Source of the DNA: Lytechinus variegatus
Lineage: Eukaryota; Echinodermata; Echinoidea; Temnopleuroida; Toxopneustidae
Length of the DNA: 64,000 nucleotides
NCBI RefSeq assembly: GCF_018143015.1
Contig: NC_054746.1
Span: 38,628,687-38,692,686 of the forward strand
Reading direction: 5' to 3'
This document shows, piece after piece, positions 1 to 46,200 of this stretch. Position 1 is the stretch's first letter. Every line of letters starts with the position of its first letter. The translations under genes were made by a program, and so were the position numbers. Below the pieces are notes generated by a model. The model worked only from the letters and a program-made list of their open reading frames with translations, made no database searches and was not told the origin of the DNA.

Positions 1-394
1 GTAGCTCTTCAAGGAGTCCGTTGACCCCCAATTTTTTTTCCTATTCGAATAGAGTATGAATTGGAGATATGATTTTATGCCACATTTGACCCTTAAAAAC
101 ATCGTGACGTCATCAACATGGCGTCGGAACTAAAAATTAGTGTTTTCTGTTTCATGATGTAACAACACCCATGTAAATTGATTCTAATTACGTAAATATT
201 GGTCTTTTCTCGCCAAATTTTCAATATGTTTTACCTTAGAATGTACCCTTTAGACAATATGTCCATTGTTTCATTTTAAAGCTTGTACTATTCTCAAAAC
301 TGGAATTTGTACTAGGTTTGTCATCATGACATTTTTCTACTTGCAACAATTTACATTGACAATATGTTTCCTGTTTTGCGTTCCTGTCTGTCCG

Positions 395-490
395 GAAGAT
401 CGTGGTCGACTGGATAACGCACCTGCCTGGTAACGCTAGGGTCGGTGGTTCAAACCTCGCTTGACTCTCTTTTTTTTTTTTTTTTTTTTC
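395..490 (+). repeat. tRNA-derived (SINE-like) Pol III module, unit 1
   Basis: TGGTCGACTGG (403-413) matches the tRNA A box, and GGTTCAAACC (447-456) matches the B box, 44 bp downstream. About 14 bp later comes a run of roughly 20 T, as in a Pol III terminator. The acceptor and T stems do not pair well, so this is a decayed tRNA-derived sequence and not a functional tRNA gene. The A box recurs in the other units at 1576, 2751, 3924, 5097 and 6270, and the B box at about 1620, 2795, 3968, 5141 and 6314. Unit 5 has one change between the boxes (CCTACCTGG in place of CCTGCCTGG). Transcription is an inference. Confidence 0.7.
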
Positions 491-500
491 CTTTATTATT

Positions 501-532
501 AGGTGGTCTGTCATGAATATGACAGATCACCT
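501..532. repeat. Hairpin within the array unit
   Basis: Arms 501-514 and 519-532 are inverted copies (AGGTGGTCTGTCAT against AGGTGATCTGTCAT) with a GAAT loop and one mismatch, which would be a G-U pair in RNA. It lies directly after the T tract of the Pol III module and recurs in every unit. A half-copy with the same sequence occurs outside the array near 8327. Confidence 0.85.
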
Positions 533-670
533 ATTATATTCGTCAGATTTTACTTTATTTATTTTTATTGCCAAATTTTGTCGCCAGGTTATCTCAAAAT
601 CGGGCCTGTCAAATTTCTTGATTTTCTTGTCATGTATGGATATTATTGTGGAATCGCGAAACGAAACTTT

Positions 671-698
671 TCAAGGTCATCAAATCGTGATGACGTCA
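671..698. promoter_or_regulatory. CRE palindrome and extended AGGTCA half-site in each unit
   Basis: A perfect CRE octamer TGACGTCA lies at 691-698, and a second at 105-112 in the same unit. TCAAGGTCA at 671-679 matches an ERR/SF1-type extended half-site. The same positions are conserved in the other units (for example CREs at 1277-1284 and 1866-1873 in unit 2). The motif matches are visible; regulatory use is inference. Confidence 0.45.
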
Positions 699-817
699 TC
701 TAGGCGCCATTTTGTAAAATTAAATTATTGATCATATCATCGCAACTAATCATCATAAATCATTCATATTTGCACCATATTAAGTTCAGATGACAGGTCA
801 TCAGGACATGTCAACAG

Positions 818-834
818 AGGTCATGCAAAGGTCA
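818..834 (+). promoter_or_regulatory. Perfect DR5 (retinoic-acid-response-type) repeat
   Basis: AGGTCA-TGCAA-AGGTCA is two perfect half-sites spaced by 5 bp, the class bound by RAR/RXR in animals. It repeats at 1993-2009, 3166-3182, 4341-4357, 5513-5529 and 6686-6702, so the array presents at least six identical sites about 1.17 kb apart. Binding is not shown by the sequence. Confidence 0.5.
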
Positions 835-3800
835 CGACGCGCACGTACGCGCGCGTCAAAATTTAAAAATTTTCCAAATCAACCGTGGTCAAGTTTGGGT
901 ACGTTTCAGGCCATTTTGAGCGTGTCAAAAATTTGCGCGCGCACAGGTATGCGTGCGCGTTTTGGCTCCTACCATCGGTATGCATCTTCGAGACGTCATT
1001 TATTTTATGTCTGTCCACTGTCCATTATCTTCTGATTAATTTGATACCTCATTCAGCCTCTTACGACCAATAATACGCAAATGCGCGTCAATTCAAATGT
1101 GCTTTACACGCGCATGCAAACTCGCAAAATAAGTCAAAAGTGGGCAAAAATATGCCTATATAAAATTCACTGTAGCTCTTCAAGGAGTCCGTTGACCCCC
1201 AATTTTTTTTTCCTATTCGAATAGAGTATGAATTGGAGATATGATTTTATGCCACATTTGACCCTTAAAAACATCGTGACGTCATCAACATGGCGTCGGA
1301 ACTAAAAATTAGTGTTTTCTGTTTCATGATGTAACAACACCCATGTAAATTGATTCTAATTACGTAAATATTGGTCTTTTCTCGCCAAATTTTCAATATG
1401 TTTTACCTTAGAATGTACCCTTTAGACAATATGTCCATTGTTTCATTTTAAAGCTTGTACTATTCTCAAAACTGGAATTTGTACTAGGTTTGTCATCATG
1501 ACATTTTTCTACTTGCAACAATTTACATTGACAATATGTTTCCTGTTTTGCGCTTCCTGTCTGTCCGAAAGATCGTGGTCGACTGGATAACGCACCTGCC
1601 TGGTAACGCTAGGGTCGGTGGTTCAAACCTCGCTTGACTCTCTTTTTTTTTTTTTTTTTTTTTTCCTTTATTATTAGGTGGTCTGTCATGAATATGACAG
1701 ATCACCTATTATATTCGTCAGATTTTACTTTATTTATTTTTATTGCCAAATTTTGTCGCCAGGTTATCTCAAAATCGGGCCTGTCAAATTTCTTGATTTT
1801 CATGTCATGTATGGATATTATTGTGGAATCGCGAAACGAAACTTTTCAAGGTCATCAAATCGTGATGACGTCATCTAGGCGCCATTTTGTAAAATTAAAT
1901 TATTGATCATATCATCGCAACTAATCATCATAAATCATTCATATTTGCACCATATTAAGTTCAGATGACAGGTCATCAGGACATGTCAACAGAGGTCATG
2001 CAAAGGTCACGACGCGCACGTACGCGCGCGTCAAAATTTAAAAATTTTCCAAATCAACCGTGGTCAAGTTTGGGTACGTTTCAGGCCATTTTGAGCGTGT
2101 CAAAAATTTGCGCGCGCACAGGTATGCGTGCGCGTTTTGGCTCCTACCATCGGTATGCATCTTCGAGACGTCATTTATTTTATGTCTGTCCACTGTCCAT
2201 TATCTTCTGATTAATTTGATACCTCATTCAGCCTCTTACGACCAATAATACGCAAATGCGCGTCAATTCAAATGTGCTTTACACGCGCATGCAAACTCGC
2301 AAAATAAGTCAAAAGTGGGCAAAAATATGCCTATATAAAATTCACTGTAGCTCTTCAAGGAGTCCGTTGACCCCCAATTTTTTTTTCCTATTCGAATAGA
2401 GTATGAATTGGAGATATGATTTTATGCCACATTTGACCCTTAAAAACATCGTGACGTCATCAACATGGCGTCGGAACTAAAAATTAGTGTTTTCTGTTTC
2501 ATGATGTCACAACACTCATGTAAATTGATTCTAATTACGTAAATATTGGTCTTTTCTCGCCAAATTTTAAATATGTTTTACCTTAGAATGTACCCTTTAG
2601 ACAATATGTCCATTGTTTCATTTTAAAGCTTGTACTATTCTCAAAACTGGAATTTGTACTAGGTTTGTCATCATGACATTTTTCTACTTGCAACAATTTA
2701 CATTGACAATATGTTTCCTGTTTTGCGCTTCCTGTCTGTCCGAAAGATCGTGGTCGACTGGATAACGCACCTGCCTGGTAACGCTAGGGTCGGTGGTTCA
2801 AACCTCGCTTGACTCTCTTTTTTTTTTTTTTTTTTTTCCTTTATTATTAGGTGGTCTGTCATGAATATGACAGATCACCTATTATATTCGTCAGATTTTA
2901 CTTTATTTATTTTTATTGCCAAATTTTGTCGCCAGGTTATCTCAAAATCGGGCCTGTCAAATTTCTTGATTTTCATGTCATGTATGGATATTATTGTGGA
3001 ATCGCGAAACGAAACTTTTCAAGGTCATCAAATCGTGATGACGTCATCTAGGCGCCATTTTGTAAAATTAAATTATTGATCATATCATCGCAACTAATCA
3101 TCATAAATCATTCATATTTGCACCATATTAAGTTCAGATGACAGGTCATCAGGACATGTCAACAGAGGTCATGCAAAGGTCACGACGCGCACGTACGCGC
3201 GCGTCAAAATTTAAAAATTTTCCAAATCAACCGTGGTCAAGTTTGGGTACGTTTCAGGCCATTTTGAGCGTGTCAAAAATTTGCGCGCGCACAGGTATGC
3301 GTGCGCGTTTTGGCTCCTACCATCGGTATGCATCTTCGAGACGTCATTTATTTTATGTCTGTCCACTGTCCATTATCTTCTGATTAATTTGATACCTCAT
3401 TCAGCCTCTTACGACCAATAATACGCAAATGCGCGTCAATTCAAATGTGCTTTACACGCGCATGCAAACTCGCAAAATAAGTCAAAAGTGGGCAAAAATA
3501 TGCCTATATAAAATTCACTGTAGCTCTTCAAGGAGTCCGTTGACCCCCAATTTTTTTTTCCTATTCGAATAGAGTATGAATTGGAGATATGATTTTATGC
3601 CACATTTGACCCTTAAAAACATCGTGACGTCATCAACATGGCGTCGGAACTAAAAATTAGTGTTTTCTGTTTCATGATGTAACAACACCCATGTAAATTG
3701 ATTCTAATTACGTAAATATTGGTCTTTTCTCGCCAAATTTTCAATATGTTTTACCTTAGAATGTACCCTTTAGACAATATGTCCATTGTTTCATTTTAAA

Positions 3801-6800
3801 GCTTGTACTATTCTCAAAACTGGAATTTGTACTAGGTTTGTCATCATGACATTTTTCTACTTGCAACAATTTACATTGACAATATGTTTCCTGTTTTGCG
3901 CTTCCTGTCTGTCCGGAAGATCGTGGTCGACTGGATAACGCACCTGCCTGGTAACGCTAGGGTCGGTGGTTCAAACCTCGCTTGACTCTCTTTTTTTTTT
4001 TTTTTTTTTTTTCCTTTATTATTAGGTGGTCTGTCATGAATATGACAGATCACCTATTATATTCGTCAGATTTTACTTTATTTATTTTTATTGCCAAATT
4101 TTGTCGCCAGGTTATCTCAAAATCGGGCCTGTCAAATTTCTTGATTTTCATGTCATGTATGGATATTATTGTGGAATCGCGAAACGAAACTTTTCAAGGT
4201 CATCAAATCGTGATGACGTCATCTAGGCGCCATTTTGTAAAATTAAATTATTGATCATATCATCGCAACTAATCATCATAAATCATTCATATTTGCACCA
4301 TATTAAGTTCAGATGACAGGTCATCAGGACATGTCAACAGAGGTCATGCAAAGGTCACGACGCGCACGTACGCGCGCGTCAAAATTTAAAAATTTTCCAA
4401 ATCAACCGTGGTCAAGTTTGGGTACGTTTCAGGCCATTTTGAGCATGTCAAAAATTTGCGCGCGCACAGGTATGCGTGCGCGTTTTGGCTCCTACCATCG
4501 GTATGCATCTTCGAGTCGTCATTTATTTTATGTCTGTCCACTGTCCATTATCTTCTGATTAATTTGATACCTCATTCAGCCTCTTACGACCAATAATACG
4601 CAAATGCGCGTCAATTCAAATGTGCTTTACACGCGCATGCAAACTCGCAAAATAAGTCAAAAGTGGGCAAAAATATGCCTATATAAAATTCACTGTAGCT
4701 CTTCAAGGAGTCCGTTGACCCCAATTTTTTTTTCCTATTCGAATAGAGTATGAATTGGAGATATGATTTTATGCCACATTTGACCCTTAAAAACATCGTG
4801 ACGTCATCAACATGGCGTCGGAACTAAAAATTAGTGTTTTCTGTTTCATGATGTCACAACACCCATGTAAATTGATTCTAATTACGTAAATATTGGTCTT
4901 TTCTCGCCAAATTTTCAATATGTTTTACCTTAGAATGTACCCTTTAGACAATATGTCCATTGTTTCATTTTAAAGCTTGTACTATTCTCAAAACTGGAAT
5001 TTGTACTAGGTTTGTCATCATGACATTTTTCTACTTGCAACAATTTACATTGACAATATGTTTCCTGTTTTGCGTTCCTGTCTGTCCGGAAGATCGTGGT
5101 CGACTGGATAACGCACCTACCTGGTAACGCTAGGGTCGGTGGTTCAAACCTCGCTTGACTCTCTTTTTTTTTTTTTTTTTTTTTCCTTTATTATTAGGTG
5201 GTCTGTCATGAATATGACAGATCACCTATTATATTCGTCAGATTTTACTTTATTTATTTTTATTGCCAAATTTTGTCGCCAGGTTATCTCAAAATCGGGC
5301 CTGTCAAATTTCTTGATTTTCTTGTCATGTATGGATATTATTGTGGAATCGCGAAACGAAACTTTTCAAGGTCATCAAATCGTGATGACGTCATCTAGGC
5401 GCCATTTTGTAAAATTAAATTATTGATCATATCATCGCAACTAATCATCATAAATCATTCATATTTGCACCATATTAAGTTCAGATGACAGGTCATCAGG
5501 ACATGTCAACAGAGGTCATGCAAAGGTCACGACGCGCACGTACGCGCGCGTCAAAATTTAAAAATTTTCCAAATCAACCGTGGTCAAGTTTGGGTACGTT
5601 TCAGGCCATTTTGAGCATGTCAAAAATTTGCGCGCGCACAGGTATGCGTGCGCGTTTTGGCTCCTACCATCGGTATGCATCTTCGAGACGTCATTTATTT
5701 TATGTCTGTCCACTGTCCATTATCTTCTGATTAATTTGATACCTCATTCAGCCTCTTACGACCAATAATACGCAAATGCGCGTCAATTCAAATGTGCTTT
5801 ACACGCGCATGCAAACTCGCAAAATAAGTCAAAAGTGGGCAAAAATATGCCTATATAAAATTCACTGTAGCTCTTCAAGGAGTCCGTTGACCCCCAATTT
5901 TTTTTTCCTATTCGAATAGAGTATGAATTGGAGATATGATTTTATGCCACATTTGACCCTTAAAAACATCGTGACGTCATCAACATGGCGTCGGAACTAA
6001 AAATTAGTGTTTTCTGTTTCATGATGTAACAACACCCATGTAAATTGATTCTAATTACGTAAATATTGGTCTTTTCTCGCCAAATTTTCAATATGTTTTA
6101 CCTTAGAATGTACCCTTTAGACAATATGTCCATTGTTTCATTTTAAAGCTTGTACTATTCTCAAAACTGGAATTTGTACTAGGTTTGTCATCATGACATT
6201 TTTCTACTTGCAACAATTTACATTGACAATATGTTTCCTGTTTTGCGTTCCTGTCTGTCCGGAAGATCGTGGTCGACTGGATAACGCACCTGCCTGGTAA
6301 CGCTAGGGTCGGTGGTTCAAACCTCGCTTGACTCTCTTTTTTTTTTTTTTTTTTTTTCCTTTATTATTAGGTGGTCTGTCATGAATATGACAGATCACCT
6401 ATTATATTCGTCAGATTTTACTTTATTTATTTTTATTGCCAAATTTTGTCGCCAGGTTATCTCAAAATCGGGCCTGTCAAATTTCTTGATTTTCATGTCA
6501 TGTATGGATATTATTGTGGAATCGCGAAACGAAACTTTTCAAGGTCATCAAATCGTGATGACGTCATCTAGGCGCCATTTTGTAAAATTAAATTATTGAT
6601 CATATCATCGCAACTAATCATCATAAATCATTCATATTTGCACCATATTAAGTTCAGATGACAGGTCATCAGGACATGTCAACAGAGGTCATGCAAAGGT
6701 CACGACGCGCACGTACGCGCGCGTCAAAATTTAAAAATTTTCCAAATCAACCGTGGTCAAGTTTGGGTACGTTTCAGGCCATTTTGAGCATGTCAAAAAT

Positions 6801-7075
6801 TTGCGCGCGCACAGGTATGCGTGCGCGTTTTGGCTCCTACCATCGGTATGCATCTTCGAGTCGTCATTTATTTTATGTCTGTCCACTGTCCATTATCTTC
6901 TGATTAATTTGATACCTCATTCAGCCTCTTACGACCAATAATACGCAAATGCGCGTCAATTCAAATGTGCTTTACACGCGCGTGCAAACTCGCAAAATAA
7001 GTCAAAAGTGGGCAAAAATATGCCTATATAAAATTCACTGTAGCTCTTCAAGGAGTCCGTTGACCCCAAATTTTT

Positions 7076-14291: not shown

Positions 14292-16485
14292 CAACATGTA
14301 ATAGAGCATGTGAATAGTTGAAGTGAAGATATATTTCAAACTTTCAATGGGTGATTTTAAGTAGTGTTGCTGCTGAAATAAATGTATATCCGGCTACTGA
14401 GCTTAGCCCTTGGCAGAGCAAGCTATAGTAATAATTTGTTGAAAAAAAATCAAAGTATGTTGACTCTTCAAGTTAGGTATTATGCCTGGTGTTTGATTTG
14501 CCCCAACACCAGCATTGAACACAACTTGAAATCACCCAATATAGCTGCTCTGTTAATATGCATTGATTTTGACTGTAATAGTCACTACATTTATTTATAC
14601 ATGCTGTGTTGTTGTTTTTTCAGAACCTGTAAGTTTTTCAACAATTGTCATTTTTCAAGTTGTCAGATCTAAGAATTTGCCTTGCTTTTGATTGGATGAG
14701 TATTAGGATAATCACAAATTTTCAGTGCTTACAACTTAAATAAAAATAGTCCCCAGGAGTAAATAGGATATTATTGTAATTTGCCTTTCCTGTTTTCACT
14801 CTTTCCATTATTTCATTAAAGAAATAGAAACCTCGTCAAAGAGGAAACAATGTAAATAAATGACATGTGAGCAGCACTGCTAACAACCCCAGTCTTCCAA
14901 AACATATTTAAGATCAGCCAGTACTATTCACTTGTGTTTTTTCTTGTAGTTTTGGTTCATGAAATGAGGATAGCAAAACATTAGCTGTCATGTTGTAATG
15001 CTACCGTATCTGTTTTATTATAATACAAGGTACATGTAGAAATCTTGATATTTTTTTGTAAACCATGGATCATGACAGCAATAAATGGGCGAGATATGAA
15101 TTAATCTCAAAGTACATAGAATAGTTATTTGTTGCTATTTATTTCAAGATATACACCTACATGTAGATATTTATTACTTTGCACCAAATGTGATCAATTT
15201 GACTCTAAAACATGATATTCTTTGAATTAATATCATGCACATATTTTTTCTCTCCAGTTTATGTCAATTGCTAGGCTATATCAGCCACACTTGTCAATCA
15301 TATTTCACTAAACACAAGTTCTCTTCCTGTCAGACCCCAATGCTCTGAAATGAAACATGTACATTGTGTCCCAAAATAAAATGTGCTTGTAACAGAAAAA
15401 TAAACAGAATGTAGTTAAAAAACACAGTTTGTATTTTCAGTAAATATTTGAAGGTCTCACTTAATTTATTTCAAATAAACAGGCTCTCGTGTAACGGCAT
15501 TGCTTTTCAACCCAAGTCCAGTAGTTCTGAACTTGCTAATCTCACAGTACCTGTTCAGATTTCTTCTCGATTCACTCAAAAAAGGAAAAAAAATCACCCT
15601 TCTGTTTTATGACATTAATGATGAATAGCTTGAATCTTCACTGTTGATTTCAATTAGGCTTGAATATACAAGAGAACTGAATGCAAACCACTAACCATTG
15701 TTTTACTGTAAGACTTCCAAGGAAGTGCAAACTTTTGTTACATCAAATATGTGTAAAAAAAACCTAATGATACAAAATCAATGTAACTTTCACAGGGGTT
15801 AGTAAATTAACTAGGCTTTATAAATCCTAAAATTTTATTGAGTAAGGTATCTATCAAGGGACATTTTTACTGGGACTCGCTGTGCATGCCTTAAATGGAA
15901 ATTCAACCTAGAAGATAAATAATTTGTGTAAAAGGAATAACATATTCCAGATAGTAATTGAATTTTTGGGATTAAGAAAAAAGATTTTTTGTTTGATATC
16001 AAATTCATGAACGTGTTTATTTGAATGAGAAAAGACCATTACCATTATGCGTTTGAATTCATCCACATTTTCCTTGCAATCCTAAGTTTGGCAGGCAAAA
16101 TTTTTCACCTAATCCATAATTCAAATTTGACTGCCTAAAATGTAGGTATTTGTGCCAATTAAATTGAATTCATATTCACTCTTCAAAGACATGCATTGGA
16201 TTTAATTGCTTTATGAAAATGACCTATTTATCAAAAAATAGGTCCAATGGTCTTCATACAAATATTTCATCAACGATGAAACAATCTCTTGTTTGTCACA
16301 GGTAGACTGTTGTGCAGTGATGCTGTACAACTCCAGGATTTAAATCCAATGACATACAAGCTGGGATCACAGATAAACTTCTTCCCAGTCTTTCTAAGTT
16401 CAAGTCTCTCATAGCATCAGACAGGTTCTTGATACCTTTGGATACATTCAACAGTCCGCTGATGGTTGAAGTCTTTCAAAAGTTT
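14292..16485. other. Intergenic between APMAP and MRPL33
   Basis: Convergent interval downstream of both genes. AATAAA motifs near 14377, 15375 and 15399 (+), and TTTATT at 16017-16022 (AATAAA on -), are possible polyadenylation signals for APMAP and MRPL33 respectively; none is confirmed. No exon was recognised. Confidence 0.4.
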
Positions 16486-16535
16486 TCACATTGACCTGAT
16501 CTTTCTGTCCTCTATGAATAATACATGTCGATTCA
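16486..16535 (-). CDS. MRPL33: MRPL33 last coding exon
   Basis: Acceptor CCGCCTGCAG, then two bases completing V, and NRHVLFIEDRKIRSM with TGA at 16488-16486. VLFxE...KIRS is the signature C-terminus of mitochondrial L33. Confidence 0.92.
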
Positions 16536-19500
16536 CTGCAGGCGGAATATAAAAGTTACAAAAATAATTTTATTTCATATGCTAAATAATACAAGATAAT
16601 TTGCGGAAGTTTCAAAGAAAAAGGGAATAAATGAACTGGCAAACAATAAAAGTTGCAATATTTTGAATGAGCCAGATGAAAATTCAGTTTGAAGTATACA
16701 GTCAAGTCAAACTGGACAAACAATGTTGTATACAGCAGATCACTTCTAACACTAATGGACCTAGTTTTGATTTTCAGAAAGTGATTGAAAAAAATATTAT
16801 TTTGGCTTGAATGCTAGAAGAAATTCAATATTTACTGGAATGAACACTGATATATGATAAGAATTTTGTATATTTGTAGAGCCCACATACTGCCAAAAGA
16901 AGCTCATGGCACTAGCTCAGCAAGTTCTCTTAATATCTTGTATATGAACAAGTGAATAAATCATCAAAATACATACATAAAATGAACATTGAGCATCTTA
17001 ATGACCTGCAGGACATAATCAACTTGCCTTTCGGATCAAACTTGACCAACATCATTTTGGGTTTTAATCTGTTCCTGATCATCACTTTACAAGTTCCTGT
17101 TCCAGCTGCACTCTTCAACATCACCATTACCCGTCTAGAAATGGAATGAAAGTGGGAAGTGTATTACACATTGTAGTTTATGTCTTCAATTATTCTTAAA
17201 CAAAATTTTATTTACTGGTAGTTTATATTCAATTAGCAAATAAAATACATGCAGGATATATCACTACTTAATTTGACGAATATTAGAGAATACAGGTACT
17301 ATTGCATAAGTCCACATTCCATAAATCAAATATTGGCCCAAGTCGAACCATATTATACAAAAATGTCTTATAAAGTATATACAAACCTCTTCTAATTTAA
17401 TTTTTCCCAAGTAAACAAATTTTTGTGGTCCAAAATGACAGGCAAAAAATATATCATTATGAATGTTGATTCACTTGTGCTATACCGGTACTTTTTTTCA
17501 TATTTGTGCAATATAACTCTTCTTACAATTACCTGCTCCCCTGAGCTTTAAAAATATGCTTTGATTACACAATCTCACAAGTCTAATATGAAGTGCATCT
17601 TCAGTTCAATCATGCATTTCAAGACATTTTTAACTTCCTGTAGAAGGATCCTAAAATGAATTTTATTATTCTTAGTCATTTGACTCGCTGTCGTGTATTC
17701 TGAATTATATTAAGAAATATAACATCAAATCTTTCTATACCGGTAATTCAACTAGATTAGATGTAAAATGAAATAGTGATGTAAATGATTTAAAATGCAC
17801 CGGGCCAAATTCACTCTGCACAGTGCTCAAGATGTAATATTTGAATGAATAGTGATTGATTTAGCCAATACTTACTTGCTTTTTGCAACTGTAACAAAGA
17901 AGAAGAGAGAAATAACATCAAAATTAAACGATCATGTTTTAATACATGTAGTTTAATAGGCCTACAGATTGCACAATTTTCAATCAGAAAGGCATCAACC
18001 ATGCCCTTTCTCATTTACCCTAAATGTCTGGACTAATCAAATTTCATATATTTTCATGAAATGGAACTAGTCCACAATGATCCAAATATATACATTTCAT
18101 CAAATTCAATAGTCACTTAAAAAGTAATTCTTGTGAAGTTCCAAAAATGTTCAATGCTGATAATATCCCAAGGCTAAGTATATCATCATGTTATGATGAG
18201 AGGTAATAGTATTGACCTCAATTACATCATCTGAATATACAATCTTCCATCTCCATATGATACATGTTAACATAAAAAAATGCACACATGGAAGAGACAG
18301 TTTTGATAACTGAATATCAAAACTGTAATCAGTATAGGAACATACATGTACCTAAATAACTACCCCCACCCCCCCCCATGCACATGTCATTTCTGTAAAC
18401 AGCGTATGTGAGGAATGAGGATGTCAAACATAACTCCATATATTACAATATTATGTATGAATATAAATGAACAACCTATACTTACATAGAGAAAATGAAA
18501 GAAACATGATGACACTGATAATCTGCACAACGGATCTGCAAGTTGGGTTTTCAAATATACTCAGCTCAATTCACACTTCACTATAAGAAAAAATTGAAGG
18601 TGAAATACATGTAGTTCTGTCAACTTATTAAAAATCTTATTTCATATTCAGCACTCAAATAAGATCATCAATATCATCCACCTAACAGAAGGCAATAACC
18701 ATTCGAAAAAGGCTGCTTTAATGTTTAATAAGTACCATCACAGATACTTTATGAAAGAACAGAATTCCAGATACAGAATCATAGCCCACAAGCAATTGTA
18801 AAAGATCAAATCCATTATATCCATGTAAATTTATAAATAGCATTAACATTCTATATTGAAATTCAAACAACCAGGCTGCAAACAACTGAAAAGTGTGAAT
18901 GGGATCATTGTGAAACTTGTCTTGATAGGCCTATAATTTTTCAAGAAACATGTATTCAACTGTGCAATCAAACTTTGCATTTCATTGTGCAAGAAAATCA
19001 ACATCTTGCCTGGCAAAATGCAAAACATGGTGTACTAAAAAAAAAAAAAGCACACACATACCGGTACACCCTCATAAAATGAGTCATCTGCTCAGTCATA
19101 TTTTCACTGACTGATCGCAATAACGAAATTGTTAGTTCTGCTGAAAATGGATGCATAACGGCAAAGATCTAAAATCATTCCAATTAAGTCTTAAAGAGAA
19201 AGAATTTGGAGCTGAACACAGAGTCCCAAGTTTAAATTCAGAAGACAGTAGAGGCGCACGGCCAATATGGGAGACTCTCCAATGTGGGAGATAATCTCCC
19301 ATATTAGAGACTTGCTTTGCAAAAGAACAAAAGAAACAACACCAACAAAAGCATAATTTTTTCCACCCAAAATATTGTCTCACTGAGATCAGAAGCCCAT
19401 TTGTTTTGTGTGTGGATGACAACAAAAATCCTTATCAAAACAAAAGTAGATGGTGAATTTTTAAAGTAGACGGTGAAAAGGGGTAATTTTTCATGAGGAA

Positions 19501-19960
19501 TCTGCTTATCACATTTTTATCTGCCGCCAAGGTAATCCTTTTGAAGCAAATGTAAACAAAGGAAATTGGTCTCCCAAACTGGAGACTGTCTCTGAAATTG
19601 GATACCCAAATTCTTTACAAAAGTCTCTGATATTGGAGATAATCTCTCTCATGGGAGACAGTCTCCAATATTGGCCGTGCGCCTCTACTGGAAGATGCCA
19701 GACTCCATAATATAATGAATAAATAATGAATTTAGGGCATTTCATGTGATGGCCTCAAAATGCAGCCTTTCTCATCAAAATCCCTGAATCATATTCAAAG
19801 TGAAGTGTGCCGACATGGGGTACCATTTTTTTCAATCTGAAAATGACTGCCTAAGTTTTTTTCAAGAAAATCCTAACCTAGTTATATTTTCTTAATTTCT
19901 TTCATTTTTCATTGACAAATTTTGTACACTTGACTTACCGGTACTCAATATAAGGAACAT
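16486..19960 (-). CDS. MRPL33: Mitochondrial ribosomal protein L33 (bL33m), four coding exons
   Basis: Component of the large subunit of the mitochondrial ribosome. Exons on the minus strand are 19960-19939, 17888-17876, 17134-17028 and 16535-16486; together 192 nt, giving 63 residues plus TGA (human protein: 65). The product opens MFLILSTVAKSKRVMVMLKS, continues AAGTGTCKVMIRNRLKPKMM and LVKFDP, and ends VNRHVLFIEDRKIRSM. This tracks vertebrate L33 throughout: MFL start, AKSK, AGTG, RNRL, YDP, VLFVE and KIRS near the end. All phases join exactly. Exon 2 is only 13 nt. Intron 3 uses a GC donor (AAAG|GCAAGT) and a normal AG acceptor; reading straight through the donor gives a non-homologous tail. 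The start codon follows an AG acceptor-like TTTCAG by 6 bp, so an upstream non-coding exon is possible. The gene is head to head with TAF6L. Confidence 0.9.
17028..17134 (-). CDS. MRPL33: MRPL33 coding exon 3
   Basis: Acceptor CATTTCTAG, then a 107-nt exon encoding RVMVMLKSAAGTGTCKVMI, RNRLKPKMMLVKFDPK and the first base of V. It ends at a GC donor, AAAG|GCAAGT. Confidence 0.9.
17876..17888 (-). CDS. MRPL33: MRPL33 13-nt microexon
   Basis: TTGCAAAAAGCAA sits between acceptor CTTTGTTACAG and donor GTAAGT. Joined to its neighbours it completes V and encodes A, K, S and the first two bases of K, matching the AKSK segment of vertebrate L33. Confidence 0.85.
19246..19690. mobile_element. MITE with 5-bp target duplication in MRPL33 intron 1
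   Basis: Both ends read CAGTAGAGGCGCACGGCC inward (23 bp identical before the first mismatch). They are flanked by GAAGA at 19241-19245 and 19691-19695. The interior has further inverted GGGAGA/TCTCCC blocks. No transposase ORF is present. A 5-bp duplication is used by, for example, Transib-type elements, but the end sequence does not settle the superfamily. Confidence 0.85.
19939..19960 (-). CDS. MRPL33: MRPL33 coding exon 1
   Basis: A 22-nt coding part, MFLILST plus one base, followed by donor GTAAGT (from 19938 downward). On the minus strand CTTTCAG ends at 19967, so the full exon may be 19966-19939 with a 5' UTR exon upstream. Confidence 0.85.
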
Positions 19961-20491: not shown

Positions 20492-20701
20492 ATGGCGGAG
20501 ACCAGCTCAAACGCAACCAGCGCAAAACCTCAACAAATCAAAGAGGAAAAACCGAAAGCTACTGATGAGAAAAAGTATGCTATATTTTCTAAAGAATCAA
20601 TCAAAACCATGGCAGAGTCTGCAGGGCATGAGAGATTGTCTGAAGAAACAGCAGCAATTTTAGCAGAAGATGTTTGTTATCGTCTCCGAGAAGCAGTGCA
20701 G
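20492..20701 (+). CDS. TAF6L: TAF6L exon 1
   Basis: ATG in good context (GCAATGGCG). Encodes a 27-residue polar leader and the first half of the histone fold, ending ...CYRLREAVQ at donor GTTTGT, phase 0. Confidence 0.9.
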
Positions 20702-23700
20702 GTTTGTTAACTCAGCTCAGTCTTGCCGGCCTGGGGGTGGGCCAGGCCAGGGCAGCTGGCAGGGAGCTCTCAGGGGAGCCAGGCGAAGCCGCGGCGGCAG
20801 AGCTCATGTAATGGCCCTGGCCTGGCTAGCATGGAGGCGTCTGGGGAGTGAAAGTCATAATATACTGTACGTATTGTCACTCCCCACTGACGCCTGGGAC
20901 CCCTCCTCCGGGGGGGGGCCACTTCCATTCACGAGTGGATACCATGCGCGACGATGGGGTCTCGAAAAGCACCCTAAACAAGTATTGGCGTGTGAAACAT
21001 GGAAACCCTAACCTTAACAAGTATTGGAAACAAAACGATACTCTTGGCAAATATTCCCTGAAATGAACCCCTAAACAAGTACAGGAATTTTTATTGTTAC
21101 GGGTCCTTCGGACGTCGGCTTTACATTATTTGGTTTAGTATGACCCCACCTTCAACATCTCGCGCAAATCGGACTCTAAACACGAAGTGTCGAGGCAAAA
21201 AGGACATCCTTTATAAAAACATTTTAATTTTGTTTTATCATCCCGGCAAATTCGACCCTAAACACATAATTTTCCTAGCGAAATAGATACCCTTTTTTCA
21301 TTATTTTTGTGTTTTTGACACCCTTATCACGTTACGTACGTAACGTGCCCTATCGTGAAAAAGACATCCTTTTTACGTATTTTTTTGGTCGCGCATGGTA
21401 TCCACTCGTCAATGTAAGTGGCCCCCCCCCGGGGGACCCCTAAATAATAATAATAATAATGGGTATTTAGAGGCGCTAAAAACAAAAAGTACCATAGCGC
21501 GTACAAAAGTAGGAAACATTTAATATTTGCAATGATTACTATACAATATTCAAGATAAAAAGGAAAATATTAATTATTGAGGAAAAAGGTATGTCTTAAG
21601 GGATGATTTGAAGCCAAGAACATTGGAAACATTTCTTATTGAAAGAGGGATAGCATTCCAAGTCTTGTGTTTTTGACACCCTTATCACGTATTCCCCCAC
21701 GTACGGGTACAAAACCAGAAACTTTCACCCCCGAGAATTCTAGCCCTAAAACATGCACATGTCATGGGGTCCAACTTCATTTCCAACATTTCTGCGATAT
21801 CGATTTCATTTTTAAAGAAGAATTCATTAAAAAAAACGAGAGATTTGTTATGAAAAGATGGGAAGAGCTTACGGCCGTGTTTACATTGCCATCTTGATTT
21901 CTTTGTCTTCCGCTTGGCGACAGCACGCAAATCACGCGATTTGCGTGCTGTCGCCAAGCGGAAGACAAAGAAATCAAGGTTGAACACTAGTGCCAACGGA
22001 TTGAATACTAGTGCCAAAAACCATCGCCGTATAATTTGATCGCTCACACAGTCGACTGGTTGAAGAAAAAAAAATAGGGAAAAAGAATAACCAGCATTTG
22101 CTCTTGGAAATGAGATGGGTCTGAAATTCAAGTAAATTCTATATTTCTATTTATTTGAGGAAACTCTTCAAAGGGGTTGAATCCTAGTGCCCTTACGGTA
22201 CCTCTTGGCATTAATTGCCAAAAAAGGGGGAAAAATCAAGTTAAAAGGCACTCATTCAATGAACAAGGTTATGATATAACCTTGTTCTCAATCTCAGTTA
22301 CATCTCCATGTGTGGCAAAATAAGGGTGGCAATGTTTTGCTTATTTTCTCTTTTTTTTATGGGACAAATGCTTGATTTTCTTACACTGTCAGTTTTCATT
22401 ACAGCTATTCATTATATAACTTGGCTCTTATGTAAATTTGATTTCTTAAATTATTTTATTCATAATTAAGAATAGAGATTGAAAGATGAAAATTTTCTTG
22501 CCATATTACTTTTCCCCAATAGAGGGCGTACACAAAAATATGCCCAAAATTCAAGTTTTTGAGCGCTCTGGTGAATACAAAAATTGTTCTTAAGTTATCA
22601 AAGGACAAGTCCACCCCAACAAAAACTTGATTTGAATAAAAAGAGAAAAATTCAACAAGCATAACACTGAAAATTTCATCAAAATCTGATTAAAATAAGA
22701 AAGTTATGGTATTTTAAAGTTTCGCTTATTTTCAATAACATAGTTATATGAACGAGCCAGTTACATCAAAATGAGAGAGTTGATGATATCACTCACTATT
22801 TCTTTTGTATTTTATATGAAATATGAAATATTGTTATTTTCTCGTCATTGTCATGTGAAATTAAGTTTCATTCCTCCCTGAACACGTGGAATTCCATTAT
22901 TTTAACATTTTGTGCTTCAGGCAAGGAGGTCCTAATTGTCAAATTCGTAAAAATTGAAATATTGTATAATTCAAACAATAAAAAACAAAAGAAATAGTGA
23001 GTGAGTGACATCATCGACTCTCTCATTTGGATGTAACTGGCTCGTTCATATAACTATTTTGTTGAAAATAAGCGAAACTTTGAAATGTCATAACTTTCTT
23101 ATTTTACATCCAATTTTGATGAAATTTTCAGCATTGTGCTTGTCTGATTTTTGTCTATTGATTCAAATCAACATTTTTCTGAGGTGGACTTGACCTTTAA
23201 TGAAAAATTGCAACTGTATGGAAATTAATTTTGGTCACAAAAGTGATATTTTAATGATTTTCAAAAGTGTGTGCTAAATACAGCATTAGCATACCATAGA
23301 CCTACGTGTACCTGTAGATTCTCCACAAGCAGGATGGTACTTGGTAGCAGTGAACAAGTGTTAAAAGGAACAAAATAGTGACCTCAGCTGTCGCGCAACT
23401 TCACTTCCCCGTTTTATTCGATCTTATACATAAACATATGGCAATTGCAGAGATGCCAAGTTCAAAGACCAGCTATGCGTGAGATTTTCTTTGAATCTGA
23501 GTGAGATCACAGACATTGTGTACAATGTATATGGGGATAGGCTGTGATAGTTGCGTGAGACAAAAAACTGAAGACTTTCGCCCTGACTCCCAAGATTTCT
23601 ACTTTCCTTCTATTCTAACGTAGTAAGTTAGGGCATAAAAAAAATTGTCCGTAATTTTGGCCTCGGTTCTAAATGCTAGTGAATCATGTAAATGGGATAC

Positions 23701-41531: not shown

Positions 41532-41540
41532 CATTTCAAG

Positions 41541-43298
41541 ATGGCAACATCAGGCAATGGGACCTTTATACCAATGGTATCATCTTCACCACCTCCCATG
41601 GATGATGTTGCATTTGATGATGATGATGACGAATTCAGCAATTTCTCCAGTGCACCTGTAGGTCTAGACTCTCCTCCAGGCAAGTGGGTTAGCTCAACTA
41701 AGGGATCGTTTGAGCCCATCAAACCTGATCTATCTGACCCCTTCCATCCTACAGATGATTCCCATCCTTCTAACAATCAGGAGGACTTTGGAACATTTGC
41801 AGCATTTGGGTCACCCAACCCAAGTCAAGATAAGCAGAACACTAGTGACAAATTTCTAACTAATAATAACATAAAAGCACACTCTATTAATGGCAATGAA
41901 AGTGATGAGGAAGATGAGTTTGCAGATTTTGCATCTTTTCAGAATCATCCCATTGGAGGATCCAGTAAGAGTGACCAATCATTTTTGGACAATGGCAAGT
42001 TAAGCGAAGTGTCATCCTATGTACTCAATAAGAACAACTCTCATGAAAATTATGAATCACACAATGCTCATTTTCCTCAGAGCTTAGACAGAGATGGCAA
42101 GGGCTTAAATAAAAGTTCTGATGACCTCCACTCAGATGACAGTACTTCAATAGGTGGAATATCTCCTCTTGGTGAAATACCACACACAGGGATTAAAGCA
42201 GGAGGTGTGCTGTCAGATTCTCAATCTAGGATTCCTTCACAGTCTTCTACAGATTACCAAGTAGCAACTGGTGAACATAAAGACATGGTTGAAAATGATG
42301 ATGAGAGTGAGGTAACAAGAAGAAAAAGTGACTCTTTGACTGCTCATTTAGAGAAACCATCAACAGGATCTCTCAGCTTCTTTAGAGACAGTGACAGACA
42401 AACCTTTGATTCTGGAATTGACAGCATCATGACACCCTCTGATTCTAGTCCTGAAGGTAAGGATGATTGTTCTGGAAATGTTATATGTGAAGAAGATACA
42501 AGCAATCATTCATCAAATATTGGACCAAATACTGTAAATGATGACGAATGGGGTGATTTTGATAACTTTTCATCTGCTGATAGTCATGCCAAGCAGTCAA
42601 TTAACGCAGAAGTCCCAGAACTGTCAAAAAATTATAATACAGGTAAAGAAAACACACAAGAAAGTGATGACTTTGGAGAGTTTGGATCAGCGGAAAGAAC
42701 TCAGCAACCTCAAGCAATTTCAGACAATACAGGGAAAGGTGTGCTTTCAAATTCAGAGAGCTGGCCCAAACCCGACTGTGGCAATACTAAAATTAATTTG
42801 TCAACACCTCAAAGTAAAACAACAGTGCAATGTGAAGATGATGATGATGATTTTGGAAACTTTGACAATGCTGAAAAAGAAAAGTCTGACAATGTAATTT
42901 CATTCAGAAAGCAAGATGATGATTTTGATGATTTTGGAGACTTTTCATCAACCAAAAGTATGTGTGTAAATGAAATCAGCAAGCAAATTCAACAAAAAAA
43001 TGGTGATGATTGGGGAAGGTTTGGTGATGAGAAAACACCAAATCATTCAGTAGCAACAGCAGGAGATGATGATGATGATGATTTTGGAGACTTTGGATCA
43101 AATCCTGGTCCATCGTCTAGTTCTGTTATGGACTCCAGAAATGATGATGAATTTGGAACGTTCAGCTCAAATGATGGATCGACACTGGGTGATTCAAGTG
43201 TTAAAAGCACAAAAAGCGATGATTTTGGATCGTTTGGTAGTAGCAGGACTGTATCAGGTTCAACAATCCCTCCAGGAACAGGCAGTGTCTCTTCAAAG
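41541..43298 (+). CDS. AFTPH: AFTPH first coding exon
   Basis: The exon starts at 41532 after acceptor CCCTTTGTAG; ATG 41541 follows 9 bp later. It encodes 586 residues and ends GSVSSK at donor GTGAGT, phase 0. The open frame continues 70 codons into the intron, but the sequence there changes character. Confidence 0.92.
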
Positions 43299-46200
43299 GT
43301 GAGTCATTATAAAACCATTGCTTGGTACTTGTCAAACTTTAACAGTCATAATTCATATTGGCATGTAGAGATGATAGACTTCCATGGGGTCAAATTGAAA
43401 ATGCTTCATAAATTTGTGCATGTTATGACACAATTTAAGTGTGCAGTATACTGCACGTGTGTACATTACATGTACATATACACATCAGTCACTCAATATC
43501 ATCCCTGTTGATGCTTTGAAATTAAGTTTCATGGAAGTGTGGAATATTAGTATAGCAAGCTTTTACTGAGAGTGCCACCCCACCTAGTAAATTCTGGCTT
43601 ACAGCTATTGATAGTTAAAGGATGAGATAAAGAAAAACAAATAACTGCTGATATTTATATCAATATTTATGACCGATACTGATTTTAGATATTGGTGTGT
43701 GCCACCAATCATTGGATAGATAGGTTCAAAGCTTTAACTTTACATGATTATCCTTTAATGAAAGTACATGTAGATAACATTCATTCATAGTTTTCCATCT
43801 TTGTTGATAGGTTTAGTACACATGGATACACTCATGTGCCACAGTACATGAAGACGGTAACATTGCAAAAATGTATTAAAAAAAAACAACATGCAATTAA
43901 CCTTCCATTCTCATAAGTTTGTGTCTTTTGAGTGTGGTTGAGGATCTTTTGTGAAAAATAAATATTGAAAAATCAATAATTTCTGGTAAATGAAATATGT
44001 ACAGTGTCTACTTGTGTTTGTACATAGGTAATAACAGCTGCGTTATACATTTTATAAATTGAATCTATTGTGCAATTGCCTTTTGCAAGCCTTCATGTAC
44101 ATGTAAATGCGTGTGTGTTTAATTAAATGCCTGACAGGGTGTTGTGAGAAAATATTTCCAATCAATTGCAAATATCTGGTTTGTTATAATTGATATTTTT
44201 TATATCATTTTTAGCTAAAAGATGTAATTATTGTTTCAGGAAGCAGATCAGTCTTATGAAGACTTACGACTGATCCGATCAACCCCAAATAAATGGAAAT
44301 CCATCGATATCATAATTTTTTTCTATTTGCACAATGTCTTTTGTTTTATAACAAAAGAAGGCACACTGAATTTTTAAGAAAACAATGAATGTATGAATAT
44401 CCATCAATATTTTGAACAAGCATTTTAGATGTGTATGTTGCTGGCTTTCCATACATGTAGTTATGGTTGATTGAATCAGTTGCAAATCTCTGTAAGATGG
44501 GGCCTTGCAATCCATTGCATATTTGCAAATGATTTCTTACAATGGGCCATTAGACTCAAAGCACTTATTAAATGGGATTTACAGTAAGGAACACATTCTG
44601 GTGCAGACAAAATTTGATAATCAAAGTAGTTTGACTTTTTTAAACAAGAAATCAGGACAGTTTTCTTTATTTTTATATTGTTGCAAAGCCATTCTGGTAA
44701 ATACATACTTTTGGATCTTTGCAAGTTTCAAAACTGAAAAGCATGTTTAAAAAATGTTGCAAATTAATTTTTAGGGCGTGAAGTAATTTTTATTCAATTC
44801 ATTACTCATATTTTAAAGGGATGCTCCGAGCTGAAACTAATATGATTTAAACCGATAAAAAAAACGACAAATAAAACACTGAATCATTAATCAAAATTGG
44901 ACAAGGAATAACAAAGTTATCAGACTCCATTTGTTCTTTTGTATTTTGTTATACAAACTTTTACTACCAAGAACTGAAAAATTGGATTGGCAACCGATAG
45001 TGCATTAGATATTCATTGCTGCAACATTTTTCATTCTAAAGGAGATTCATTCACACGTGTATGAAAAAAATGAAACAATTATGATTTCATGTAATAAAAT
45101 AAGAAAAAGGAAAGTGGGGACTGGGGATGTGACTTCATCAGCCCACCTAATGACTATTCATGATGACATGCATATTTTCACAAAATATCTAAGTTCAATA
45201 ACTTCCTCATTTGTTATCCAATTTTGTTGAAATTTTCAGCTTCTTGGTCATTGAATTTAATTCTTTTTATTTAGATATTTATAAATATTTTCAGCTGGGA
45301 GCATCCCTTAATGTGTGTCACCAAATGAACTTGCAATACTTCACATCAGCTAATTTTTTTTTAACTACTGCACTTAGCATACTATCTGCACCCAGAATAC
45401 ATGCTTAACTAGAATGATACTGTACACACTATTCCCATTACAACAGTGCAATATTCTGCAATGGAACAGAAATGTACAGTCTTTTACATTCCCATTTTAA
45501 TTCATGAAGATATTAACAATAATAATTAAAAAAAAGAGCCATCCTAATTAAACCAAACTTGCTTCCAAAATTCATTTTATGAAAGTTTAACTTTTATTTT
45601 TCTTTTTATAAGACTATCACTAAAGCACATGAGTCTATGGTGAGAGTGAGACACCCAGGCTCGAATTCGCAAAAGTGGTTTTGAAAACCCATGGTTGAAT
45701 CCATGGTTATGCAGATTTCCTGTATAAATTACGCTTAACTTCCCGCGTATCGGGCGCGTGTATAAAAATTGTCCATTGCTGATGCACGTTTTTGTCACAG
45801 TGCGCCAAATTGACGCCTGTTACCATGGTTAGACCTAGATGCTATTTTGTTCTTGAGTCCACTGTTTGAAGAGTGGACTCATGAATAAAATAGCGTACTA
45901 AACCATGGCAACAGGCATCAATTTGGGCACTGTGACAAAATGTATCAGCATTGGACATTTTGTTAATGTACGGTACGTGGTAAATAAGTGTAATTTATAC
46001 AGGAAATCTGCATAAACCATGGGTTCAACTGATGGTTTTAAAAACCACCATTGTGAATTCGGGACCCACTGATCATAAACATACGTACAAACCTCTATTT
46101 TTATATTAAAGAAAAAAAATTTGAAAGAGGTCTGGTTTGTTACTTAGAAACTTATGAATTTTACACTGTACAAACTGTACATAATTGTCTCATCTGTACA

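Follow-up and report, generated by a model that had tools for sequence, protein, structure and literature searches.

A probable MRPL33 gene of Lytechinus variegatus with a 13-nt microexon and a GC-AG last intron

Can four very small open segments on the minus strand of Lytechinus variegatus DNA be read together as a complete mitochondrial ribosomal protein gene, and if so, where does its coding sequence begin? The window analysed here is a stretch of 64,000 nucleotides (GC content 34.9%), in which the original prediction had joined exons of 22, 13, 107 and 50 nt into a product of 63 residues. Our analysis leads to a nuclear gene for MRPL33 (bL33m, a protein of the mitochondrial large ribosomal subunit) with four coding exons at 18507-18486, 17888-17876, 17134-17028 and 16535-16486, a reading to which we assign a probability of roughly 0.82. 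The coordinates, lengths and phase of the predicted exons were reproduced and exons 2 to 4 are retained, while the choice of 19960-19939 as exon 1 is probably mistaken.

The sequence, phase, similarity and splice-site scores can all be read directly at the locus. The probable coding exon 1 (18486-18507, minus strand, 22 nt) encodes MFLSFSL and the first base of codon 8, and ends at the donor TAT^gtaagt. The microexon (17876-17888, minus strand, 13 nt) finishes this codon as F, then encodes AKS and supplies two bases of K. Exon 3 (17028-17134, minus strand, 107 nt) carries the L33 core and is followed by the donor AAG^gcaagt, and exon 4 (16486-16535, minus strand) has 50 nt including the stop codon TGA. 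The three introns would have phases 1, 2 and 1, respectively, the last one being of the GC-AG type. The joined frame of 192 nt is intact, giving 63 residues that end in KIRSM and a stop, with no early stop codon. AATAAA words resembling polyadenylation signals occur 3' of the stop codon, including those at 16021 and 15839.

Translated with the 18507 exon 1, the product scores 26.6 bits against the Pfam family PF00471 over residues 29-57, a narrow pass of the gathering cut-off of 25. In a phmmer search, its top match of solved structure is the bL33m chain 3j7y_1 (E 1.2e-13), aligned over residues 1-63 with 33 of 63 residues identical by a hand count on the phmmer alignment. The product thus shows both the family domain and full-length similarity to animal mitochondrial L33. 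We take the chains 3j7y_1, 4ce4_6 and 9e9c_1 to be those of human, pig and another mammal, respectively. The Lytechinus product resembles these mammalian proteins from MFLS to KIRS and is two residues shorter, the difference falling after AKSK. The locus looks like an ordinary animal MRPL33 gene with four small exons, one of them of 13 nt. We infer that it is transcribed and spliced, and that its product has a role in the mitoribosome.

The support for exons 2 to 4 was assessed with a purpose-written splice-aware protein-to-DNA aligner, with general splice-site weights that were not trained on the Lytechinus variegatus genome. With human bL33m as the query and introns charged at 20 bits each, the spliced alignment scored 55.8 bits and recovered exons 2 to 4 with two query residues deleted. 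The three exons were placed at the borders of the original prediction, and the alignment stopped at the last sense codon, at 16489. All of the 30 shuffled queries stayed at or below 11.0 bits under the same setting (mean 1.4), and the score on the other strand of the 5.5-kb region was -1.6 bits. When the window was cut into 32 overlapping chunks (at most 8 kb, both strands), the two containing the locus both scored 55.8 bits, and the top score among the remaining 30 was 4.0. On the strength of the shuffled queries, the reverse strand and the other chunks, a chance assembly of the exons was rejected. All 32 runs, which combined two queries (human and pig), four intron costs (16, 18, 20 and 22 bits) and four settings of the allowed start, contained the introns 17875-17135 and 17027-16536; among them are the eight runs that allowed neither candidate ATG. 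An intron cost of 12 led to spurious tiny introns that filled the two-residue gap, and at this cost the scores of 12 shuffled queries rose to 33.7-43.9, the real query reaching 85.2.

A tblastn search of the window with human bL33m detected exon 3 with an E-value of 2.8e-07 and exon 4 with one of 0.003, but neither exon 1 nor exon 2. These values apply to 64 kb; scaled to a genome of roughly 1 Gb they would be about 15,000 times larger, and exon 4 would then be insufficient by itself. The original statement that annotation would miss the gene was partly overstated. An annotation pipeline that uses homology would probably pick up the locus by way of exon 3, and the first two exons are likely the parts prone to wrong or missing annotation. 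One could also imagine that this is a silent or decaying L33 copy with the working gene elsewhere. This we consider barely credible, given introns that are present, exons that are in frame without an early stop, and a 64-kb window in which no second L33 locus was found.

The 13-nt internal coding exon, as originally proposed for the MRPL33 gene, is upheld both by the spliced alignment, with its 55.8 bits against the shuffled maximum of 11.0, and by comparison with other candidates. Internal exons shorter than 100 nt, with both splice sites scoring above 0, were collected between the 18507 exon 1 and exon 3. Of the 13 candidates in phase, 17888-17876 came out on top, with 91.6 against 79.5 for the next. 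Its acceptor (8.0 bits) is in the top 1.5% of AG sites and its donor (9.1 bits) in the top 0.5% of GT/GC sites of the minus strand, so that a very short internal coding exon here has usable sites at both ends. In much animal work, microexons are exons of 27 nt or less. With the 18507 exon 1, skipping of exon 2 shifts the frame and leads to MFLSFSLYG followed by a stop, and therefore the microexon is presumably included constitutively; skipping of exon 3 likewise alters the frame of exon 4. The spliceosome could define such a short exon through its strong flanking sites and a long pyrimidine tract.

PMC8831610 sets the microexon limit at 51 nt or less, and describes stronger splice sites for the constitutively spliced microexons of human brain. 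It also gives about 80% as the share of human microexons whose length is a multiple of 3, and states that small microexons (15 nt or less) are often misannotated or missed. The Lytechinus exon has its length and its strong flanking sites in common with these small microexons. The microexons of PMC8831610 are from plants. At 13 nt the Lytechinus exon is not a multiple of 3, and so it would be frame-keeping and constitutive. For human MRPL33, two reviews (PMC7700125, PMC8324868) describe an alternatively included exon named 'exon 3', a name which would fit two preceding exons, as in Lytechinus. Our literature search found no paper on MRPL33 microexons or on MRPL33 in echinoderms, nor one on constitutive micro-exons in mitochondrial ribosomal proteins.

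The last intron begins with GC, a feature absent from the original prediction. Its donor, AAG^gcaagt, scores 6.48 bits and departs from GT within an otherwise strong consensus, and the acceptor of exon 4 ends in AG and scores 7.23 bits. GC-AG introns are a known minor class. The outcome is a gene model, probably corrected, of a conserved protein of the mitochondrial ribosome. On a small scale it also illustrates that the full form of a gene can be hidden by a very short exon and a GC donor; general understanding is unchanged by it.

Where, then, does the coding sequence start? Candidates were scanned from any ATG between 20400 and 17949 that opened an exon of the right phase, stop-free over 7-88 nt and ending at a GT/GC donor above -20 bits. 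Among the 116 candidates, 18507-18486 (MFLSFSLF) ranks first with 16.57 bits (protein fit 10.5, donor 6.07), followed by 19960-19939 (MFLILSTV) with 15.2 bits (protein fit 3.5, donor 11.7), and the third reaches 7.29. The two leading candidates are both 22 nt long, have the identical phase, start with MFL and possess usable donors. The residues encoded by the 18507 exon are MFLSFSLFAKSK, compared to MFLSAVFFAKSK in human, and the 19960 exon gives MFLILSTVAKSK. In 1500 regions simulated with a second-order model, the score of 15.2 was reached by two and that of 16.57 by one, the 90% point being 8.4. Since so few simulated regions reached either score, neither candidate looks like chance under this null. 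Elsewhere in the window, all exon 1 candidates whose donor scored above 0 stayed below 12 bits.

We conclude that coding exon 1 is probably at 18507-18486 rather than at 19960-19939 (minus strand, 22 nt, MFLILST). The latter segment is probably not coding exon 1 and is possibly an alternative first exon. That the same gene starts at 19960, as originally modelled, seems improbable to us, and the evidence on it is divided. In its favour are the phase, the MFL start, the better donor and the spliced alignment with pig L33, which prefers it by 2.6 bits at each of the four intron costs. The human query puts 18507 ahead by only 0.4 bits, again at each cost, and at the lower cost of 12 the division recurs: the human query starts at 18507, that of pig at 19960. 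The poor protein fit of the 19960 exon beyond MFL speaks against it, as does phmmer, where the 18507 version scores higher for all three full-length 65-residue bL33m chains among the 45 chains listed (53.3 vs 49.8 for 3j7y_1, 46.8 vs 45.5 for 9e9c_1, 46.5 vs 44.4 for 4ce4_6). These three chains and the 18507 version have F before AK, where the 19960 version has V. The 18507 version is also higher for 9i05_Aw and 1nkw_1, by 1.0 and 0.7 bits. For several partial or distant L33 chains among the 45, the 19960 version ties or leads by at most 0.4 bits, for example 33.4 vs 33.2 with 7pkt_z and 27.4 vs 27.0 with 6ywe_X, and its Pfam PF00471 score is higher by 0.2 bits. The donor of the 19960 exon, CCG^gtaagt, lies inside the octamer TACCGGTA, which was observed six times against 0.15 expected, five of the six copies starting between 17483 and 20342. 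Because the donor sits in an over-represented word, its base-by-base score at 19939 is inflated. Restricted to the three bases that follow the octamer, it would drop by our hand calculation from 11.7 to about 3.9 bits and the total to about 7.4, an ordinary value; this correction was made post hoc, with the data already seen.

The sequence upstream bears on the same choice. The ATG at 19960 is 532 bases from that of a TAF6L-like gene, so that a shared promoter is conceivable. A transcript running unspliced from about 20400 would meet 16 ATGs (between 20400 and 19961) before this start, and the acceptor just upstream of it is weak, at 2.96 bits. By comparison, there is no ATG between 18579 and 18508, and candidate 3' splice sites of 5.6-6.3 bits lie at most 75 nt upstream of ATG 18507 (18522-18580, minus strand; exon starts 18580, 18535 and 18522). 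These acceptors would allow a 5' UTR intron, with a 5' UTR exon that may lie nearer the TAF6L-like gene. It is also imaginable that both 22-nt first exons are joined to the common 13-nt microexon, as alternative starts that would produce two N-termini; if true, these could differ in mitochondrial targeting, for instance. The equal length and phase, the shared MFL start, the usable donors and the rarity of each score in the simulations are what this idea can draw on. Past the first codons, the two exons show little nucleotide similarity by eye, and the enrichment of the octamer makes 19960 less convincing, so we regard joint use as quite improbable, and the single coding start at 18507 is the one we prefer.

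The TAF6L-like gene begins head to head with MRPL33, with a histone-fold stretch at 20492-20710 on the plus strand (ATG 20492; PF02969, E 1.3e-12). Three of the ten open frames scanned at this gene match Pfam, one being this PF02969 frame and two matching TAF6_C, and one downstream frame has TAF6L as its best solved match (E 2.8e-11). The gene would extend on the plus strand from 20492 to about 31700, the far end being guessed from the list of open reading frames. A foldback element sits between the two exon 1 candidates, at 19246-19690, with 53-nt arms that are 79% complementary and GAAGA on both sides; it resembles a MITE (non-autonomous DNA transposon) whose target duplication is 5 bases long. 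Two palindromic octamers are strongly over-represented in the window: TACATGTA, with 48 copies where a second-order model predicts 2.67, and TACCGGTA, the octamer of the 19960 donor. The word TGACGTCA is also over-represented window-wide (15 against 0.68 expected). A 659-residue open frame at 41532-43511 is rich in acidic DDDDDFGDFG-like motifs and had no Pfam match at 0.1; we would presume it to be reminiscent of aftiphin. Positions 1-7000 hold a tandem array with a period of about 1173 bases and repeated open reading frames.
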